DNA from: Globomyces pollinis-pini
Taxonomy: Eukaryota > Chytridiomycota > Chytridiomycetes > Rhizophydiales > Globomycetaceae
Direction of reading: 5' to 3'
Length of the DNA: 12,428 nucleotides
Assembly (NCBI GenBank): GCA_025399215.1
Contig: MU621518.1
Coordinates: forward strand, 1 to 12,428
Below are positions 1 to 12,428 of the stretch, piece after piece (the stretch's first letter is position 1; every line of letters starts with the position of its first letter). The position numbers and the translations under genes were made by a program. The notes beneath the pieces are model-generated. The model was given only the letters and a program-made list of their open reading frames with translations. It had not been told where the DNA came from and searched no databases.

Positions 1-642
1 AACCGACCTGGAGTGTTTGCCTTGACGTATGATGATGGTGTATTCAACTATACCAATCAATTACTCGATATCTTGGAAGCTAACAATGTACCAGCTACTT
101 TCTTCATCAATGCCTTCAATTGGGGAGATATTACCGTTGAACCATACAAATCCGTCTTCAAACGATTATATAATTCCAAGCATCAATTGGCCAGTCACAC
201 TTATGATCATTTAGATCTCAATACTGCCACTAACGATCAACTTTGGGCACAAATGTACCGAAACGATTATGCATTCAAAGAATTAGTTGGTGTCCGACCT
301 ATCTATATGAGACCTCCATATGGAAGTGTCAACCAAAACACATTAACGGCATTAAACAGTTGGGGATACAAAGCCATCTGGATGAATATTGATTCATCTG
401 ATGTGGATCATCCAGCTGATCCAAATGCAGTTGAACTTAGTAAACAGAGTTATGATGTTACTATTATCAAAGGAGATCCAACCAAAGACTCATACATTTC
501 CTTACAACATGATACTTTGATCGAAACTGCAATTGATTGGACGAAAACCTTAATTCCATATGTTAGATCAAAAGGATATCAATTTGTAACTGTTGGTGAC
601 TGTTTAGGTGAACCAAACAAAAATCAATGGTATCGAGCTTAA
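1..642 (+). CDS. CDA: Chitin deacetylase (carbohydrate esterase family 4), 5' partial
   Basis: This is the C-terminal 213 residues of a polysaccharide deacetylase that removes N-acetyl groups from chitin to give chitosan, normally at the cell wall or outside the cell. The frame is open from base 1, so the start and any signal peptide lie upstream. All five NodB/CE4 motifs are visible. Motif 1 is TYDDG (25-39), with the catalytic-base and metal-binding aspartates. Motif 2 is SHTYDH (193-210), with both metal histidines. Motif 3 is RPPYG (310-324). Motif 4 is DSSD (391-402), where families usually show a tryptophan after the last D and this protein has V. Motif 5 is LQHD (502-513). Motif 1 ends in V instead of the usual P. 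The protein stops right after a CLGE...WYR ending typical of the Mucor-like group, so it has no Ser/Thr-rich tail or GPI signal and is probably soluble and secreted. Chitin as substrate is inferred from family resemblance. Confidence 0.9.
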   Translation, partial: NRPGVFALTYDDGVFNYTNQLLDILEANNVPATFFINAFNWGDITVEPYKSVFKRLYNSKHQLASHTYDHLDLNTATNDQLWAQMYRNDYAFKELVGVRPIYMRPPYGSVNQNTLTALNSWGYKAIWMNIDSSDVDHPADPNAVELSKQSYDVTIIKGDPTKDSYISLQHDTLIETAIDWTKTLIPYVRSKGYQFVTVGDCLGEPNKNQWYRA

Positions 643-663
643 TTTTCAATCTTGAATTAAAAC

Positions 664-669
664 AATAAA
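664..669 (+). terminator. AATAAA polyadenylation signal of the chitin deacetylase gene
   Basis: A canonical AATAAA lies 22 nt after the deacetylase stop codon. The next gene converges from the right with its stop at 763, so the two 3' ends are only about 120 nt apart and their untranslated regions probably overlap. Confidence 0.55.
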
Positions 670-762
670 GTATTGATTTAGAAAAAATAGGTTTAAAGCT
701 ACAATTTAAATTGCAAACATAAACATGCTTTATATTTCATTGAGTTTAGTACTAAAGAGTCT

Positions 763-1790
763 TTATCCAATGATAGCAGCCATCGAGAACTTGACTCTTC
801 TCATTCCCTTGTTATGGTTTGGAGTGTACGGTGTTTGAATGGCCAATTTTGTATCATGGTAGAAGAAACTAAACACTAGAGCAACCAAAACGGAATAAAT
901 ACTAGAAGATACATTCAAAGTTGCATTTGGAGTCACGTCAGCGGTCTAATGGTAGATTATTAGTATCAAAATATTTACGATTGCGCTTTGAGGGAGTTGG
1001 TTATTTGCAACTCCAATTATGAACATGAAGAACATGGCCACAAAGGATAACACTCCAGTTGATATTGGATTACTATATAGTAACCAAGTTGGAAGTGAGA
1101 TTTTGTTTTCATCTTGAAGTTTACGCAAGTACTGAGCAGTCTTAAACATGTTAGAATTCAAATGTAATGGAATACCGAAAAAGTAGCATACATATAAACT
1201 AACAATTCAAAGAATAGTGCGTATATTTGATAGATTCCAAATGAATTGATTTCCATTCCAAATGCTATGGTCAGGTAGGATTCATTTACCATGGAACAGG
1301 AATGGCATAACAATTCGCGTGAAAACCAAAAAATAAGAAATGACTACTCGTACATCCAATCTATTTTCATCAGTTACAGCTTTTGGAGTGATGATCAATC
1401 CATTGGTTCGAATCAACACAACTACAGGTAAAAAAATATTAGTGCTTACTAATGACAGTGAAAATATGTGACAATTCAGTCAACCAGTTGGCAAGAATCA
1501 AAAAGAGTACACTTCCGACTGCACCAGTTGTGGTATCACCTTGATGGTAATCCAAACCAAAAAATATAGCCTTCAAAATTTCATTCAATAATTTAATGCA
1601 TAATGTAGTTATGATACTGATTTGAATATTCTGTTCACCTCTTGACAAGGACATATCACGTATTAACCATACTAATCTACCAGATACGAATATCTGAAGT
1701 ATTAATGAAAATCTGAATATTTACTGGTAGTACTAGTAAAATGATTGCTGATAGAATAGAAATAACAAATGGTCCAGAAGATTCGATCAT
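763..1790 (-). CDS. Seven-transmembrane protein, GPCR-like topology, family not recognised
   Basis: Reading from ATG at 1790, I join exons 1790-1725, 1693-1450, 1421-1290, 1264-1176, 1140-979 and 945-763, giving 291 residues. The five introns are 31, 28, 25, 35 and 33 nt, all GT-AG, several with a CTAAT or CTAAC branch-like site. The product has seven hydrophobic spans at about residues 6-27, 45-66, 79-108, 126-148, 156-178, 203-222 and 240-261. Loops after spans 1, 3 and 5 and the C-tail carry the basic residues. The loop between spans 6 and 7 has two N-glycosylation sequons (NAT at 237, NVS at 242). This fits an extracellular N-terminus and cytoplasmic C-tail, as in G-protein-coupled receptors. 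I see no diagnostic family motif, so a receptor role is inference from topology only; a transporter or RTA1-like protein is possible. It converges on the chitin deacetylase gene. Confidence 0.65.
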
Positions 1791-2338
1791 TTTGTAAGTA
1801 TCTGCTTAATTTGATTTCAAATGGTCAAGTTTATTTTTTCTTATTTATGTTTATGTTGATTTGTTTAACTCGAAGGTGGGGGGTTTTATTATCACTTCCA
1901 CTTTGCTAAAATTGGTTTGGTGGTTTAAAATTATTATAGTAGAAATACAGTTATTTTTATTGGTTTGATTTTACCAGACAAATTTTTTGTACCGAAATTT
2001 TGAATGGGTATCCAACAATCCCATTCATAACAAAAAAGTTTATGATATAAACATATATGATTCTTAATTGCTGTTTTTTAAATTGATTATGAGATTAACT
2101 TTCTTTGGACACGTAACTGATTTGGTGGGTGGTAACTGGTAATTGATCATGGTGATGATGACCCAAGAAAAAGAGGCAGTCCATGTACCAATCTATCATC
2201 CATTCACATATTTTTGGATTCAAGTATTTAGCAGTGGCTGGTTTAATAATAATTCAATTTATTCGCAGGTCAAAAGTCAACTCTGGTACCATGTGAGAAT
2301 CAAATCCTGCATATTTTTTACGTTTATTCTTTGAAAGA
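1791..2338. other. Intergenic spacer between divergent genes
   Basis: This 548-nt AT-rich stretch separates the starts of the seven-transmembrane gene (-) and the zinc-ribbon gene (+) and should hold both promoters. I see no convincing coding sequence. There is an 8-bp perfect hairpin (TGAATGGG at 2001-2008 with CCCATTCA at 2020-2027, 11-nt loop) and a G-run near 1877. Neither has an assigned role. Confidence 0.6.
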
Positions 2339-2707
2339 ATGGACATTCAGATCAGATGCCAAGACTGCAATGAAGAATTCCCATTCACTGCTGGACAACA
2401 GTACTTTTATCAAAGTAGAGGATTTACAAACCCAAAGAGATGTCCTAGATGTAAGTCTGCCAAAAAGAAACTTCATCAAAATATTTCAGATGGGTTTAAA
2501 AATCATCGTGTTAGTGCTGTTCCAAAGAATGCTGTTATCTGTGCTTGGTGTGGTAATCCTTGTCATTCAGAATTGCATTGTCGATGGAAAGAAAGGGCAA
2601 CTTGTAGTCATTGTGGAAGGATTGGATATCCAACTAGCGTGGGAATGGCTAGAGGTATCCGTACAAATTCAGTCGAAATGGCCTGCAAATGCAATGCATT
2701 GATTTGA
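2339..2707 (+). CDS. Small double zinc-ribbon protein
   Basis: This is an intact, intronless 122-residue protein. The N-terminal half matches the 'probable zinc ribbon' (zf-trcl) family pattern: CxxC at residues 7 and 10, then the characteristic EFxFTAGQQxFYxxxGFxNPKRC stretch, then CxxC at 35 and 38. The second half has a separate ribbon-like set, CAWCG (68, 71) and CSHCG (89, 92), with extra cysteines at 75, 81, 116 and 118. Basic residues (KSAKKK at 39-44) follow the first ribbon. It is therefore probably a nucleic-acid- or protein-binding zinc protein, but its partner and process are unknown. The ATG at 2339 is chosen because the ribbon starts six residues later and the frame has no better start. 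It converges on AFG2 with 77 nt between stop codons. Confidence 0.8.
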   Translation: MDIQIRCQDCNEEFPFTAGQQYFYQSRGFTNPKRCPRCKSAKKKLHQNISDGFKNHRVSAVPKNAVICAWCGNPCHSELHCRWKERATCSHCGRIGYPTSVGMARGIRTNSVEMACKCNALI

Positions 2708-2716
2708 TTTGAATCA

Positions 2717-2722
2717 AATAAA
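2717..2722 (+). terminator. AATAAA polyadenylation signal of the zinc-ribbon gene
   Basis: A canonical AATAAA lies 10 nt after the stop codon at 2705-2707, inside the 77-nt gap to the converging AFG2 gene. On the other strand an AATAAA (2786-2781) overlaps the AFG2 stop codon itself. Confidence 0.5.
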
Positions 2723-2784
2723 AAAACCTTAAACTTATGTTTCCCAATACACTGTTCTAATTTAAAATAAATATTATGTATTTA

Positions 2785-5606
<2,822 letters not shown>

Positions 5607-5747
5607 CTTTGTTTTTGAATGGTGAAATTTAACTCCATCCAAATCCACTTCATCTATCTTTGAACTAGTCTCGTAAAATATGAAGGAAGAAAATAAAGTT
5701 GTATGAATCTGTTATATGTAATTCATTGATAATTTAACCGTGTATTA

Positions 5748-5882
5748 TTTAATGGACGTTTGAATTCATTTGATTTAACGTGTAATTGAAACTGGATTAA
5801 CTCAATGAAAACTTGAATTGGTGGATACTTTGTAAATATCATATCTTCAATATGATACTTTCACCAAACAACGTCCATTAAA
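5748..5882. repeat. 135-bp segment bounded by 13-bp perfect inverted repeats (possible miniature element)
   Basis: TTTAATGGACGTT at 5748-5760 is matched by AACGTCCATTAAA at 5870-5882. Inside is a second small palindrome, TATCATAT (5837-5844) and ATATGATA (5850-5857), with a 5-nt loop. There is no coding sequence and no convincing target-site duplication, so a solo miniature inverted-repeat element is only one reading. A paired protein-binding site upstream of AFG2 is another. Confidence 0.35.
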
Positions 5883-5905
5883 ACAGTGTTCACTAAAAAA
5901 CGTAT

Positions 5906-5911
5906 TTTATT
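5906..5911 (-). terminator. AATAAA polyadenylation signal of the Rab11 gene
   Basis: On the minus strand AATAAA follows the Rab11 stop codon (5931-5929) by 17 nt. The spacing is normal for a fungal polyadenylation element. Confidence 0.5.
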
Positions 5912-5928
5912 GAGCCGAGTTCCTATTT

Positions 5929-7015
5929 TTAACAACAACCACCTGCTGCTTTCTTTTTGTTATCAGTTGGCGCGATATTGATAGACTGTCCACCTCCAAC
6001 TTTTTTATTTGCACCTCCTTCATTCTCCAGTGCTTTGCTAGAAACAACCTTGTAAATTTCTATACTTGGTTAACGATAGATAACGTTACCTCCTAAAATA
6101 TTTTGGAAACTTGTTTCTACGTTGGTTGCTTCCAAAGCTGATGTTTCGATAAAAGAAATAGATTGCGAAGCTATCATAAATACTAATTAAAATCCAGTTA
6201 CTTGCAAATTCCTTAGCTTCTTCTGTTGGTACTGCTCGAAGGTGATTTAAATCACATTTATTTCCAACAAGCATAATCACAATATTAGCATCAGCATGAT
6301 CGCGTAATTCCTTTAACCATCTTTCTACACTTTCAAATGTTTTTTGTTGAGAAATGTCATAAACCAATAAAGCACCCACAGCACCTCTGTAATATCTGGA
6401 AAAGGTTAGAAATGAAATACAATAAAAAATTCCAATGAATAATTTGTGATGACAAATTTGTTTGCAAGTTCCAATCATCACATATGACTAGAAACAAAGC
6501 CTACAAGAGAGTCACATGTACAAAACAGATTAATTGTATATCGATGATAAGAAAAGTAACATACGCACTAGTAATTGCTCTGTAACGTTCTTGACCAGCA
6601 GTATCCTATGATAAGAGGAGCAAAAGTTACCCAAATCTGAGCCTTAATTGTTTTGCTATCCACTTGAATAGAACGAGTAGCGAATTCAACACCAATAGTA
6701 GATTTTGAGTCCATATTGAATTCATTTCTTGTGAATCGAGCCAATAAATTTGATTTACCGACACCAGAATCACCAATCAAAACCACTAAAAAGAGTTAAT
6801 AATAAATAACGACGATTAATGATAATAAAAAGATCAATAATATAAGCAATAGATAAATAGTTAAAACCGGTTAGAAATGAAAGTGATAAAATCAGTTATC
6901 AACAGGGGACAAGGAGTGATAATCGGGAACAACACGCATAAGGATATAAGAATCAAACCAATATCAATGAGTATCTCCTACCTTTGAATAAAAAATCGTA
7001 TTCTTCGTTTGCCAT
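5929..7015 (-). CDS. RAB11: Rab11/Ypt31-family small GTPase
   Basis: Six exons (7015-6982, 6785-6631, 6605-6565, 6395-6202, 6170-6090, 6059-5929) give 211 residues, close to the usual length of about 216. GTP-binding motifs are intact: GDSGVGKSN (16-24), switch [19 protein letters not shown] (64-69), NKCD (122-125) and ETSAL (150-154). GKSNLLxRFTRNEF and the effector region are the Rab11 signature within the Rab family. The C-terminal Gly-Gly-Cys-Cys is the double-geranylgeranylation site that anchors the protein to membranes. In fungi this GTPase controls late-Golgi exit, endosome recycling and secretion to the growing tip. Introns are 196, 25, 169, 31 and 30 nt; the first and third are far longer than any other intron here. 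The gene precedes AFG2 in the same direction and diverges from UTP14. Confidence 0.96.
6396..6564 (-). other. Unusually long third intron of Rab11
   Basis: This 169-nt intron has a GTATGT donor and a TCTAAC branch-like site just before the CCAG acceptor. It contains an 8-bp inverted repeat (TGTGATGA 6445-6452, TCATCACA 6475-6482). No complete snoRNA signature was found: the UGAUGA match lacks a following CUGA box. Confidence 0.75.
6786..6981 (-). other. Long first intron of Rab11
   Basis: This 196-nt intron (GTAGGA donor, TTTTTAG acceptor) interrupts the gene after codon 11 plus one base. It is the longest intron in the window. A long first intron near the promoter can carry regulatory sites, but none is recognisable here. 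Confidence 0.8.
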
Positions 7016-7319
7016 TTAGAAAGAAAGAAGCAAGAGGACGCCACGAACAAATTCACACAATGCCATCATCCTCCACTAGATAACACTAAAGCAAATTAGA
7101 TATTTGTAAATATTTAATATTCATACAACTACTGTTGTTGAAAAGTCTTATTTCTAATAAGGTCTATAACGTGTTGTGTATAGTATCAGTACAATAAATA
7201 TACTATTATGAGTATTCTTTAGTTGGTATTTTTATTAGAATTTTTGTTAATAGTATTCCATTCTATTGATTTGATAATTCATATTTTTTTTTTTTTTTTT
7301 TGAATTCAAATTTAGATTC
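7016..7319. promoter_or_regulatory. Shared divergent spacer of Rab11 and UTP14, with an 18-T run
   Basis: Rab11 starts leftward at 7015 and UTP14 rightward at 7320, so both promoters must fit in these 304 nt unless they extend into the genes. A homopolymer of 18 T (7284-7301) lies 18 nt before the UTP14 ATG. Poly(dA:dT) tracts exclude nucleosomes in fungal promoters. That role here is inference, and no specific factor site is recognised. Confidence 0.5.
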
Positions 7320-10285
7320 ATGGGAAAAAGAATCAATAAATCTTTGTTGGATGTCTATGACGCCCAAGACAATGGTGACCAATCAAAAAAACTATTGGCT
7401 AGGAGAGGTGGTGGTGGTGGACATGATGGTAGAAACTTGGATTGGAATGTAGACAATTTTGATTTTGATATTGATAACATTGACTCGGATGATGATGAAG
7501 AAATTTCAGAAGATGGTGCTTTTAATGAAGAGGATGAAGAACGTTATGGACTATTTTTTACAAATAACAAATTTAAGAAACCTGTTGAAGAATCTGAACA
7601 GGAGGAAAGTTTTGATGAAGATGATGATGATGAGTTCATGGACATCTCTGAAATGTTAAATGATGAACCAAAACCTGTGGTAGCTAAAACCACCAAACAG
7701 TCTACAAAAGAAACTTCAAAAAAATTCTCTCTTTTACTTCCTAAAGAGAATGATTTATCTGCATCAGAATCGGATGCTATAGTAGAAGAATTTTCTGATG
7801 AAGACGAGAGTGATGATGACCAAGTGGATGTATCTGGGTTAATTGACAAACTTGGCACAAAGGAATCTCTAAATAAGAAAAGAAAACGACTACAGGAGAG
7901 AACAGAAGCGTTTGAGGAGTCGGAATATATGCCCTCAAAAGCTGAGCTAACTGGAAGAAAGAAATTGGCTTTAACGGATTTAGTGGGTGTCGTTGCAGAA
8001 GAAACAGGCTTTGGTGAACTCAAAAGTCAATTGGGAGTTCTGCGGAAACATGCTGCAGCCCCTATCAGTGTTCCATTAGTTCCTAGAATGCAAGAAAAAC
8101 TGAATAGAGCAGCTGCTAGAGAAGAAACTGAAAAAGATGTGTCAAAATGGAATCCAATTGTACGTCAAAATCGACAAGCTGAACAGTTATCTTTCCCCAT
8201 GAATGTACCTGCTCCTAAAAACATAACCAGTGGTGCTCTTGTAGGGAATTTTCAGGTAACATTATTGGGTTTATTCACACATAGCCATTTAATGATATGG
8301 AAATAGAGATTAACAATATGCTGGAGCAGTCTGGACTTACAGAGAAAAAATTAAAAGAGACAGAAGAGTTGGAATTGAAAAAGTTGTCAAAAGCTGAAGT
8401 ACGAGTGTTATTGAATTTAATCATTAGGTTATTGAAAGACAACAGCATTTAGCTAAAATGAGATCACTTATGTTTTTCAAAGAGCAAAAGCAGAAACAAA
8501 TTGCAAAGATTAAAAGTAAAACGTACAGAAAGATTGCAAATAAGGCTGCTGAAAAGAATAAAATGTCACTGGAAGAATTGCATCAACTGGATCCAGATTT
8601 GGCACGTCAAGAAAAAGAAAAACTGGAATTTGATCGTGCTAAAGAGCGAATGACTTTGAAACACAAGAATACAAGTAAATGGGCGAAGCGAATGATTGGT
8701 CGTCAAAGAGAAGAAGGAACCGAGGTAATTCAAGTATACTTATGCAATTAAAGGGTCAAAAAGCTCTCTTGAATCAATTAAAACGTGGAGAACAACTGAA
8801 ACGAAAAATTGAAGGGTTTGATTCAGATGAATCAGAATACAACGCGACAGATGATGAAGAAAATGCTTTGGGAGATGGAATAAATCATTTAAAAAAACTT
8901 GAAGAAGATATTCAAGAATCCGAAGAACCTACAAAAGGAATATTTGCAATGAAATTCATGAAAAAAGGTCTAGAGCAACAAAAGAAAGAGAGTGCATTGG
9001 CAATCGAAGAAGCAAAACGTGAAATACAAAGTTACGAAAGTGGTGACTACACTTTAACAGAGCCAGAAACCAAAGTAAATACTCATGGCCGACACGTATT
9101 TAACCAATCACAAAAAATTCGTCCAAAAGTAACAAATCAAGTGTCTGACGTATCCGAATTTCAAGACACACAAGAATTTAACGTCAAATCTTCAGGGTCA
9201 CTGAATATACATACGAATACTAGTCAGCCACTGTTCCAAGTAGAATCGTTTGACGATGATGCTGAGATTTCAAACAGTAAATCTATTTCTACACATAATG
9301 TCAACAAAACCAAGATAGCCGAGGTACCAGAAGTGCAAGAAATACCCAAAGAGTCCCTTGAAACTGAGGATGTGATTGTCAAAGAAATTACAAAACCAAA
9401 GAAGATCAAAAAATCAAAACTTCGAAAACAAATGGAAAAGAAAGAAGAACCAGTGGAAACCAATGATGTTGAAAATCCTTGGTTGATTGGAGACGGTTCC
9501 ACGGCAGTAAAGAAGTCTATAGTAGTTTCACATAAATCACACGAACGAATGGGTAAATCTGAAAAGTCATTAGCCAAACTTTTAAATGAGAAGAAAAAAG
9601 TACTTACATCAAATGATGCAGAAGAAGATGAAGAATGGATCGTTCAAGCACCAGCCGTAGAATCTAACGTAGATGGAAATGAAACACAAACAAAGAAACA
9701 AAAGAAAAAGGCAAAGAAGACTAAAAATGTCAATGGGGATGATGAAATTGCACATGTGGATGATTTAGATACAATGGACATTATGCAAATGGCTTTTGCA
9801 AATGATGATGTTGGCAAAGTAATATTTTAAAAACAATTAAATTTTTAGGATTTTCAAATTGAAAAAGAAAAATTGGCCAAGATTGAAACAGGAGTCGTTG
9901 AAGAATCTGTTTTGCCTGGTTGGGGTGGTTGGAGTGGACCTGGAATGAATCAAAAACCCAAAGTGAAGAAAGTAAAGAAATCTGGAGGAGTTGCATTAAG
10001 TAAACGTAAAGATAAAAATTTACAAAATGTCATCATCAATGAAAAAAGACAGAAAAAGGTAACTAACTTATTGAAAAAATTGATAATCATTAGGTATCTA
10101 AATACTATCAAAAACAATTACCACATGGATTTGATAATGCAACCCAATATGAACGTACCATGAATACACCATTAGGTAAAGAATGGAATACACCAAGTTC
10201 GTTTAATAGTCTTGTCAAACCAAAGATTGTGACTCGTATGGGTGCTGTCATTCATCCACTCAAGTATACAAGTAAACCAAAATAA
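7320..10285 (+). CDS. UTP14: UTP14, SSU processome component
   Basis: Six exons (7320-8255, 8285-8398, 8428-8724, 8754-9818, 9849-10058, 10094-10285) encode 937 residues, slightly longer than yeast Utp14 (about 900). UTP14 belongs to the nucleolar small-subunit processome, where it binds U3-associated pre-rRNA and activates the helicase Dhr1 for 40S maturation. Acidic, low-complexity blocks fill the first 180 residues. Conserved parts follow: the PLVPRMQEKLNRAA to NRQAEQLSFP block near 255-295, KIKSKTYRKI (377-386), the LPGWGGWSG motif (826-834) and a C-terminal NVIINEKRQKK to EWNTPSSF block. All five introns (29, 29, 29, 30, 35 nt) are phase 0. A long antisense frame over the acidic part is only a composition shadow. 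The charged region at 450-800 is poorly conserved, as usual for the family. Confidence 0.95.
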
Positions 10286-10340
10286 GATTACAATTATTCT
10301 AATGAATCATTTTAATATTTAAAAAGACTTGTAGTTTCTT

Positions 10341-10346
10341 AATAAA
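10341..10346 (+). terminator. AATAAA polyadenylation signal of UTP14
   Basis: AATAAA occurs 55 nt after the UTP14 stop codon (10283-10285). It is the only canonical match before the repeat-rich region begins. Confidence 0.5.
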
Positions 10347-10409
10347 CAATATATAAAAAGGAAACTGATATTTACGCACGGTTTTCTTATGATATATTCA
10401 TTTTCCAAT

Positions 10410-10481
10410 GAGGATGGGTTAGAAGAGGAATCTGATAATGGGTTAGAGGACTCGTCTGATGATGAGTTAGAAGATACAAAT
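10410..10481 (+). repeat. Three degenerate 24-nt tandem units coding an acidic peptide
   Basis: Units at 10410-10433, 10434-10457 and 10458-10481 each read roughly (E/D)(D/N)(G/E)LE followed by acidic or polar residues. They lie in a small open frame (ATG 10389, stop 10488-10490, 33 residues). The frame is too short and too low in complexity to call as a gene. It ends where the FAR1-like frame begins and may be the acidic leader of the same decayed gene. Confidence 0.5.
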
Positions 10482-10680
10482 CTATTATAAGGATGAATGG
10501 GTTAACCTTACCACTAAAACAAGCAGGGTCGGACGTGTAGCCCTAAAATGCGATAGAGGTGGAGTTTACAAAAGTACACGTAAACAAGGTAGAAATAGCT
10601 CATCCAAACTAGCTGCATGTCCATTCGAAATTGTTTTACTGTTATTGGGCATTGTGTATTTCCGTCAGGTCGAAATGTGA
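10471..10680 (+). pseudogene. FAR1-type (WRKY-GCM1 fold) zinc-domain relic, likely from a MULE transposase gene
   Basis: The frame from 10471 to the stop at 10678-10680 reads KDEW, then VALKCDRGGVYK, a basic segment with SSSKL, then AACPFEI. The spacing CDRGG...CPF is the hallmark of the FAR1 DNA-binding domain found at the N-terminus of MULE-type transposases and their domesticated relatives. These are common in Mucoromycota genomes. No ATG lies in this frame, the upstream acidic repeat is in another frame, and after CPFEI the frame drifts into unrelated hydrophobic residues and a stop. The distal zinc-binding residues and any transposase core are missing. It is read as a decayed fragment. 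A very short unrecognised intron could also explain the frame change. Confidence 0.5.
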
Positions 10681-11115
10681 CGATATTTTCATTCATTATT
10701 GTTTAAAACAATAAGACCTTATTGCCTTTGCTCCTATCGGCAGTAGTACATATTACTGAATGATACCAGTTATCTTAACCAAAATTATGTCCAAATTATG
10801 TCCAAAGTCACTCAAAACATGAAGGTATCGAAGATAGCCATTTGTGTTAAAAAACTGTGAACAGACTTTATCTTGTAGAAAGTCTAGGATACTTCGTGTT
10901 AGACTCTAGCATCTTGGCCAATATCAATGATACCAGGTAAACATATCGGAGATTAGCAATATAGCTATCAGCATAGCAATGCCATACTAATGAAAACACT
11001 TGAATGATACCAGTTTTGTTAATCGATGATTATTGCTATAAATATTTAACAATTTATAATATATAACTTAGATATTTATACTAACACTAGAAGGAATTGC
11101 TAAATTATATCACAT

Positions 11116-12428
11116 TTAATTAATGGACAATTTCTTTAAAGCAGGAAAATCAGCCCACAAATCATCAATGAGAATGACCCGGTCATGAATTTTTTTTGGT
11201 TTACCTACACAACTACCTGGTATAATCCAATACACTTCCAAGCGTTTCTCCTCCGATCTACTAAAGCAAAAATTCAACCATCGTTTACAGTTTTTGCTCG
11301 CTCCATCAATCTTGGGATGACTTGTAAATGGGTTCTTAACTGTTACTTGAAACGCCATCAACTCTAAATCATGATGATTCCAAATGAAATAATCCAAACC
11401 CGGATAGTTTGAAGATTTGGGAACAAACAATGTTGTCACCCGTCGGTTAAACAAGTGATTTGGGGGTAGTTCGCTTCCAGAGAAATAAATAATGTCTTTG
11501 ATTTCCAACATCTTTTGAACAGGTTTAACAGTTGAAAGACCCGCATTTGTAGTTTTGTATGATTTAAATGAAAATCTTTGTGAAAGCTCCACCATGGTTA
11601 TTATATACTTTTCAACGATCCTTCCCTTCGTATCATTTGTGTAATCTCCTTCAAAAACAAGCTCCGCAGCCATTCCAAGAGGAGTCACAAGACCTCGCCC
11701 ATGGTAAGTGATTAATGCTTCTCGAGCAACAGGATTCAAAGCAGTAATAATATAAGTCTTATCGATACATAAAACAATATCAAAAAGCTGTTGGTCCATT
11801 CCAGTCATAGTTTTTGGTGGAGATAATCCAAGAGCCATGCGAGAGATACATTCCTTGAGGTTGAGTTTCTTTTCATCCGAAAGTTTGTCACAAAATATTC
11901 CATGCCTTATGGCCATCTCGTTCACTCGATTTTGACGATAAAGCAATGTTTTTTTAATCAACGTCTTTTTAGGTTGCTTCCACAACAAATCCAGTTCATA
12001 TGGAACACCACCAGTCCAGAACAAAGCATCAACCGCTTCTTCGGATTTATGATTGACTTTTCCAACATTTTCAAGTCGGTAATGGTCACACCATACCTTG
12101 AATTCATCGTCATCAAATCGGTGGCTTGAGATATCATGAGTGTGCCAACCTGCCATTTCTGTAGGATATCCTTCGTTATTGGCAGATGCTGAAATAACCA
12201 TCTTGATGTTTCGGCCCCGATGTGTAGAAAAGTAGTCGATGAGGTTGAAAGGAAACTGTTCCACCACAACTGAACGAGCATAAAAAGCGTTGTGTTGGTC
12301 ACAAATTACAATCCATTGAAGCTTCTTCAGTTGAATATAACCAATTAGAGACTCCATCATCATCGTCATCATCTTTTCTTCCTTGTCGCTTCCAGTAACT
12401 GCTTGACACCATTCTACGATAGACTTTG
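11116..12428 (-). CDS. Crinkler (CRN)-type P-loop NTPase-nuclease protein, 5' partial
   Basis: The frame is open to the right edge, so the N-terminus (any CRN header and Walker A) lies outside; 436 residues are visible. An NTPase portion shows the Walker-B-like WIVICDQHN (Asp codon 12300-12298), the sensor-like ISASANN (from about 12195) and TGGVPYEL (from about 12015), as in the STAND-like ATPases of CRN/RHS proteins. The C-terminus looks like their restriction-endonuclease-fold domain: LDYFIW, then an FQVTV strand (Gln codon 11349-11347), then SHP, then a final ILIDDLW. Such proteins are host-directed effectors in some pathogens, but are also widespread in free-living and symbiotic fungi, where conflict or genome-defence roles have been proposed. 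No secretion signal can be judged. No intron is visible in 1.3 kb, unlike most neighbours. Family assignment rests on motif recognition only. Confidence 0.7.
   Translation of the reverse strand, partial: KSIVEWCQAVTGSDKEEKMMTMMMESLIGYIQLKKLQWIVICDQHNAFYARSVVVEQFPFNLIDYFSTHRGRNIKMVISASANNEGYPTEMAGWHTHDISSHRFDDDEFKVWCDHYRLENVGKVNHKSEEAVDALFWTGGVPYELDLLWKQPKKTLIKKTLLYRQNRVNEMAIRHGIFCDKLSDEKKLNLKECISRMALGLSPPKTMTGMDQQLFDIVLCIDKTYIITALNPVAREALITYHGRGLVTPLGMAAELVFEGDYTNDTKGRIVEKYIITMVELSQRFSFKSYKTTNAGLSTVKPVQKMLEIKDIIYFSGSELPPNHLFNRRVTTLFVPKSSNYPGLDYFIWNHHDLELMAFQVTVKNPFTSHPKIDGASKNCKRWLNFCFSRSEEKRLEVYWIIPGSCVGKPKKIHDRVILIDDLWADFPALKKLSIN

Follow-up and report, generated by a model that had tools for sequence, protein, structure and literature searches.

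Introns of 24–36 nucleotides with minimal splice signals in the chytrid fungus Globomyces pollinis-pini

Introduction

Among the closest described systems, the introns of Paramecium tetraurelia have a mode of 25 bp, and those of Nyctotherus ovalis measure 21–29 nucleotides (nt), are AT-rich and carry GTA...TAG ends (PMC5014332/PMC2633312). In fungi, by comparison, a mean intron length of 63 bp, as in Cryptococcus neoformans, is called relatively short (PMC8476143), and the 5′ splice sites of Schizosaccharomyces pombe and Saccharomyces cerevisiae use GUAAGU and GUAUGU (PMC8163875). The present study concerns a stretch of 12,428 nt from the chytrid Globomyces pollinis-pini (Chytridiomycota, Rhizophydiales; GenBank assembly GCA_025399215.1, contig MU621518.1, positions 1 to 12,428 of the forward strand; hereafter the window), in which four genes, encoding a seven-transmembrane (7TM)-like membrane protein, AFG2, Rab11 and UTP14, are interrupted by introns close to the smallest known. 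We consider, with a probability of about 0.92, that the introns of this genome are genuine U2-type spliceosomal introns that have shrunk to a class of 24–36 nt with minimal signals.

Globomyces introns resemble those of both ciliates in forming a narrow length class, and they share with those of Nyctotherus an AT-rich composition and GTA...TAG ends as the conserved signal (+3A in 57/64 and TAG in 55/64 supported short introns). Unlike these ciliates, however, Globomyces is a fungus, its modal intron length is 29 nt, and the last exon base is G in 35/64 cases; in addition, a branch-like TRAY site is enriched over shuffled sequence, whereas in Nyctotherus none is reported to have been found (PMC2633312/PMC5014332). 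Like other fungi with short introns, such as C. neoformans, Globomyces is intron-rich. Its predicted coding sequence contains 3.8 short introns per kb, close to the average of 3.93 per kb that Table 1 of PMC8476143 gives for two Chytridiomycota, but its introns are less than half the 63-bp mean of C. neoformans and have little G at position +5. The kind of intron is therefore known in ciliates, and what is new is its occurrence in a fungus with +5 specifically weakened. The literature listings searched, which did not extend to the text of the Globomyces genome paper (Amses et al. 2022), showed no account of such short introns in any fungus and none of how long introns are in Globomyces and related species.

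Introns of the Window

All 32 introns of the window have GT-AG ends and, in the gene models, restore the frames of known proteins. The first-pass annotation, which was made from the letters alone, had likewise placed 32 GT-AG introns in these four genes, and independent models arrive at the same total (7TM 5, AFG2 17, Rab11 5, UTP14 5). They also recover its further figures, namely 30 of the 32 at 25–40 nt with a median of 29, and the shortest length, 25 nt, in three genes (one intron each in 7TM, AFG2 and Rab11), so that the observation is confirmed. Most window introns are in fact 25–36 nt long, and the two that are not short, of 196 and 169 nt, both belong to Rab11. Ciliate-type ultra-short introns show a shortage of stop-free introns of length 3n; in the window, the 30 short introns divide into 9, 10 and 11 by length modulo 3, a count of lengths only, obtained with a predictor biased against stop-free 3n introns.

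AFG2 is an AAA ATPase gene of the AFG2/SPATA5 type. The AFG2 protein deposited for G. pollinis-pini (P0001) is letter-identical to the spliced product over 710 residues spanning 17/17 junctions; therefore, other annotators had used the same junctions. In an alignment with six relatives, 14/17 junctions show no gap in any of them; of the other three, one is interrupted by a single gap in one relative and two are situated in variable loops. Query residues 204–770 of the spliced product also align to the solved AFG2 homolog A with few short gaps, the N-terminal part aligning weakly. A 19-nt intron candidate proposed by a trained gene finder was dropped, as a 34-nt intron fits the deposited protein instead.

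Spliced Rab11 aligns without gaps to Rab11A from residue 3 to about residue 189. A 178-nt version of one long Rab11 intron, ending at a downstream AG, was rejected because it loses three conserved residues, whereas the upstream CAG (169 nt) retains YYRG. In UTP14, 5/5 junctions fall where the product aligns with solved Utp14 (entry 6ke6) locally without gaps, and residues 174–932 of the product match Pfam Utp14. The 7TM product has no match in a Pfam search, so that its five introns, placed solely by reading frame and splice grammar, are the least secure. The four genes and their introns are as follows.

763..1790, minus strand: 7TM-like membrane protein gene, 291 amino acids, 6 exons (gene model; introns by model)
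946..978, minus strand: 7TM intron, 33 nt
1141..1175, minus strand: 7TM intron, 35 nt
1265..1289, minus strand: 7TM intron, 25 nt
1422..1449, minus strand: 7TM intron, 28 nt
1694..1724, minus strand: 7TM intron, 31 nt
2785..5606, minus strand: AFG2/SPATA5 (AAA ATPase) gene, 18 exons (gene model, deposited protein, alignments; introns by model and relatives' alignment)
3133..3166, minus strand: AFG2 intron, 34 nt
3317..3343, minus strand: AFG2 intron, 27 nt
3377..3403, minus strand: AFG2 intron, 27 nt
3461..3488, minus strand: AFG2 intron, 28 nt
3567..3593, minus strand: AFG2 intron, 27 nt
3660..3688, minus strand: AFG2 intron, 29 nt
3785..3816, minus strand: AFG2 intron, 32 nt
3963..3992, minus strand: AFG2 intron, 30 nt
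4163..4195, minus strand: AFG2 intron, 33 nt
4351..4384, minus strand: AFG2 intron, 34 nt
4475..4507, minus strand: AFG2 intron, 33 nt
4620..4645, minus strand: AFG2 intron, 26 nt
4689..4717, minus strand: AFG2 intron, 29 nt
4842..4867, minus strand: AFG2 intron, 26 nt, variable loop in relatives
5014..5039, minus strand: AFG2 intron, 26 nt
5217..5241, minus strand: AFG2 intron, 25 nt, one gap in one relative
5285..5324, minus strand: AFG2 intron, 40 nt, variable loop in relatives
5929..7015, minus strand: Rab11 GTPase gene, 211 amino acids, 6 exons (model and alignment; end coordinate derived from lengths)
6060..6089, minus strand: Rab11 intron, 30 nt (model and Rab11A alignment)
6171..6201, minus strand: Rab11 intron, 31 nt (model and Rab11A alignment)
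6396..6564, minus strand: Rab11 long intron, 169 nt, GTATG donor with +5G (alignment)
6606..6630, minus strand: Rab11 intron, 25 nt (model and Rab11A alignment)
6786..6981, minus strand: Rab11 long intron, 196 nt, GTAGG donor with +5G (model and alignment)
7320..10285, plus strand: UTP14 gene, 937 amino acids, 6 exons (model, Pfam, alignment to 6ke6; introns by model and Utp14 alignment)
8256..8284, plus strand: UTP14 intron, 29 nt
8399..8427, plus strand: UTP14 intron, 29 nt
8725..8753, plus strand: UTP14 intron, 29 nt
9819..9848, plus strand: UTP14 intron, 30 nt
10059..10093, plus strand: UTP14 intron, 35 nt

Short Introns Beyond the Window

The survey was extended to 29 further loci of this genome, which together with the window make up 242 kb out of 18.5 Mb. 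The gene finder used scores nothing but codon usage; the only splice signal that it requires is GT..AG, and its length prior is flat from 15 to 400 nt. In a first pass it predicted 229 introns, peaking at 26–32 nt. With a retrained codon table, no motif and the flat prior, 252 introns were predicted, 118 of them at 24–36 nt, whereas 11 other dinucleotide pairs run as controls with the same table gave 18–42 at that length, of 174–252; the table had been trained on GT-AG predictions, which is a mild bias in favor of GT-AG. When donor and acceptor profiles were learned by expectation-maximization, still with a flat length prior, 581 introns were obtained with a peak at 25–34 nt and a mode of 29 nt (n = 50). 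The lower edge of this distribution is sharp, with 4 introns at 23 nt, 7 at 24 nt and 26 at 25 nt, and predictions of 15–23 nt are rare (18/581). Under a mild preference for 20–45 nt, 89 predicted genes contained 555 introns of that length, which corresponds to the density per kb given above.

A single narrow class, comparable to the one of about 20–35 nt in ciliate-type ultra-short introns, holds over the 242 kb, with a few longer introns such as the two in Rab11, and the same class is seen in housekeeping genes on other contigs, where the spliced products of SEC18, chorismate synthase, AFG3 and PEX6 align to solved homologues. The predictions do contain errors: some gene models are fusions, which affects introns-per-gene figures; the finder fused Rab11, AFG2 and flanking sequence and excised a 21-nt piece of Rab11; it also excised 72 nt of LUC7 coding sequence that are present in the deposited LUC7. 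Most introns of more than about 60 nt predicted in the first pass and in the expectation-maximization run are probably errors of this sort. In the SEC18 gene (L008, 1977–2042), the 66 nt between two exons can be divided into two abutting GT-AG introns (35 + 31 nt) with no exon between them; this segment is either a single 66-nt intron or a twin intron.

Splice Signals

Signals were read from a supported set of 66 introns in ten genes, of which 64 are short. Support consists of identity with deposited proteins for AFG2 and LUC7, and of junctions inside alignments to solved homologues for Rab11, UTP14, SEC18, chorismate synthase, AFG3 and PEX6; in the last four the junction was required only to lie inside the aligned stretch. 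Tubulin alpha (one intron) and 7TM (five introns) rest on the model alone and were kept. Three PEX6 junctions and one AFG3 junction outside the alignments, together with two AFG3 and two SEC18 predictions adjoining zero-length exons, were dropped before the 64 were counted.

At the 5′ splice site, +3A occurs in 57/64 short introns and +4 is A in 35/64 or T in 24/64, while the last exon base (−1) is G in 35/64; at the 3′ end, TAG is present in 55/64. In contrast, +5G, a usual but not defining feature of U2-type introns and the base that U1 C4 and the C in the U6 ACAGA box generally read, is found in only 7/64 (6/59 without the 7TM introns). Because intron interiors are 79% A+T and 10% G, this frequency is at background, and the information content is 0.03 bits at +5 as against 1.07 at +3 and 0.91 at −3. 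The splice signal is confined to G^GTA(A/T), where the caret marks the splice junction, and TAG, plus a degenerate TRAY; the near-loss of +5G, on which the first-pass annotation did not remark, is a new observation made here. No clear trend of +5G with intron length appears among the predictions (0.21, 0.18, 0.19, 0.13 and 0.30 in five length bins). Each of the two long Rab11 introns carries +5G, unlike most of the short introns, although this is a sample of two.

The branch-like site to which the first-pass annotation had drawn attention is genuine but weak, in that TRAY occurs in 290/403 predicted introns, whereas shuffled sequences give 203 on average. The branch-like A stands 6–11 nt before the last intron G in 208 of these 290 introns, a distance that offers little space for a polypyrimidine tract. 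We also considered whether exons avoid GTA...TAG pairs specifically at intron spacing, and rejected the idea: relative to synonymous shuffles, such pairs stand at 0.65 at 24–36 nt and 0.66 at 37–49 nt, and the depletion extends to longer spacings (0.73–0.81 in five longer bins).

Splicing Machinery

The U2 small nuclear RNA, U2AF65 and METTL16 of Globomyces are conventional. The U2 small nuclear RNA (snRNA) is complete (135 bits), with its branch-binding GUAGUA intact. The exons of U2AF65 match TIGR01642 separately, none above the whole-protein cut-off, and the spliced protein matches solved U2AF65 across RRM1–RRM2 and the C-terminal domain. METTL16 is also present, its best matches being U6 A43 methyltransferases.

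Neither Rfam searches nor five sequence patterns gave a convincing gene for U1 or U6 snRNA, which does not imply absence, as the family search scores few candidates. Genome-wide, the U6 core was not found even when 3 mismatches were allowed in 25 or 20 bases, or 2 mismatches in 19; the U6 gene of Globomyces may be intron-split, divergent or missing. One U1-like pattern match (L043) was rejected as chance, since the expected 5′ end is absent and Rfam gives no match; the pattern itself has 7 matches versus 10 for its reversed control.

A Pfam LUC7 search identified one LUC7 locus in the Globomyces genome, the assembly of which may be incomplete. The deposited Globomyces LUC7 (P0121) shows 100% identity over the 278-residue query, with the same junctions. 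In an unrooted tree of 33 LUC7 proteins chosen from the matches, this protein falls on the LUC7L3 side of the split with 100/99 support, as do all seven Rhizophydiales included. A chytrid query of the LUC7L/L2 type matches Lobulomyces, Spizellomyces, Geranomyces, Synchytrium and others; among the best 120 of 2003 matches, many of them unnamed, there is no named row from Globomyces or other Rhizophydiales. Among named chytrid matches (L030–L032, P0121–P0358), the two classes seem reciprocal, with LUC7L3 in Rhizophydiales and LUC7L/L2 in Spizellomyces, Clydaea and Lobulomyces, while Zopfochytrium has both types. The LUC7L3 type was seen in Batrachochytrium, Homolaphlyctis, Boothiomyces and Gorgonomyces.

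Discussion

The anatomy of these introns suggests splicing by intron definition with minimal signals. Apart from GTA(A/T) and the G that ends the exon, U1 would find little to pair with, and U2 would pair with a branch site so near the AG that a polypyrimidine tract hardly fits, if at all; the usual mode of U2AF binding is therefore probably excluded at this site. Part of the recognition signal may be the constant short spacing itself. The first-pass annotation had proposed a spliceosome working near the minimum length, and, given the recurrence of the class across sampled loci and its sharp lower edge, this is a fair inference from sequence. Its suggestion of an unusual lineage also holds, as this is an early-diverging fungus with introns far under the 63-bp mean (PMC8476143). 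It had further called for the genome-wide intron length distribution and the U2/SF3B/U2AF genes to be examined; the 242 kb sampled gave the narrow peak with a mode of 29 nt, and the U2 snRNA and U2AF65 found are conventional.

One might hold instead that errors in the assembly or lesions of pseudogenes broke the frames, and that the short introns are an artefact of forced frames. Gene finders can indeed invent short introns, as is evident from the 18–42 predictions that control pairs still yield at 24–36 nt and from the LUC7 coding sequence wrongly excised. Nevertheless, the excess of GT-AG over control pairs at this length, the frequencies of TAG (55/64) and +3A (57/64), the identity with the deposited AFG2 and LUC7 proteins, and the same intron class in housekeeping genes of other contigs make this very improbable. 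Even less credible is a shortened minor (U12) or other non-U2 class. U12-type introns are marked by an ATATCC donor and a TTCCTTAAC branch, neither of which was seen in the 32 window introns and 60 listed predicted introns (U11 and U12 genes were not searched for), and the GTA..TAG ends and degenerate branch site also argue against that class.

If the introns are real, as we believe, their weak 5′ splice sites might be explained by AT-rich drift in a compact genome, with LUC7 irrelevant, and we regard this as a reasonably probable account. It is in keeping with interiors of 79% A+T, with a −1G that is not strengthened, and with the introns of Paramecium and Nyctotherus, which likewise keep mainly GTA...TAG (PMC2633312, PMC5014332). 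Under the same drift, however, +3A and TAG remain strong while +5 is nearly information-free, and the loss is therefore position-specific. The alternative is that loss of +5G is tolerated because the sole remaining LUC7 would be of the LUC7L3 type, supporting exon-side (U5-class) rather than U6-class sites, a step that is less certain than the mode of splicing proposed above. According to a review, 5′ splice sites that pair strongly with the U6 ACAGA box are supported by LUC7L/L2, and those whose exon side pairs strongly with U5 loop 1 by LUC7L3 (PMC11732430). The signal nearly lost in Globomyces, +5G, is the U6-class one, and the LUC7 retained is the type tied to the U5 class; the cases in that source, as excerpted, are shifts in +4 or in site usage, whereas in Globomyces +5 is nearly information-free. 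A genome with LUC7L3 only and little +5G thus fits the LUC7-class roles, but the link between the two is tentative. Similarly, that rhizophydialean chytrids lost LUC7L/L2 and kept LUC7L3, and that, in Globomyces at least, U6-class (+5G) sites then all but vanished, is possible and rather doubtful.

Several points weigh against the reading of minimal, shrunken U2-type introns or against its LUC7 extension. Splicing is predicted from DNA and protein sequences. The U1 and U6 genes were not found, so that their pairing sequences are unread. TRAY is degenerate and present in only 290 of the 403 introns. Predicted introns carry +5G more often (19% of 403; 23/118 in the motif-free set) than do those of the supported set (7/64), and a residual +5G preference may thus exist in Globomyces introns. 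There is no trade-off between −1G and +5G within the genome (Fisher p 0.69, 64-intron set), and with −1G in 35/64 the exon side is not unusually strong, leaving U5-class compensation unsupported. Finally, the LUC7L3 type is common to other Rhizophydiales, and the LUC7/+5G link rests on the splice sites of one species.

If the LUC7 reading is correct, a fungal spliceosome would recognize introns of 24–36 nt from GTA, TAG and spacing, and would offer a natural experiment on LUC7 paralogues and +5G. The introns described here place a flagellated fungus alongside the ciliates as another lineage in which intron length approaches the physical minimum; its genome retains U2AF65 and METTL16, and its genes contain many introns. 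A comparison among chytrids could address the minimal distance between branch point and acceptor, and whether losing one LUC7 class permits loss of +5G.

Other Features

In addition to the four intron-containing genes, the window carries three further open frames. Positions 1–642 belong to a polysaccharide deacetylase (chitin deacetylase-like) gene that is truncated by the contig end, with 13–642 open and intron-free. An intron-free open frame at 2339–2707 holds a treble-clef zinc finger (zf_Tbcl, PF13451), and on the minus strand 11116–12372 is an open frame of 418 amino acids with no Pfam match. Elsewhere in the genome, the U2 snRNA gene is adjoined by a leucine-rich-repeat-like protein in which short regular repeats can be recognized by eye (L009, 1798–2856).

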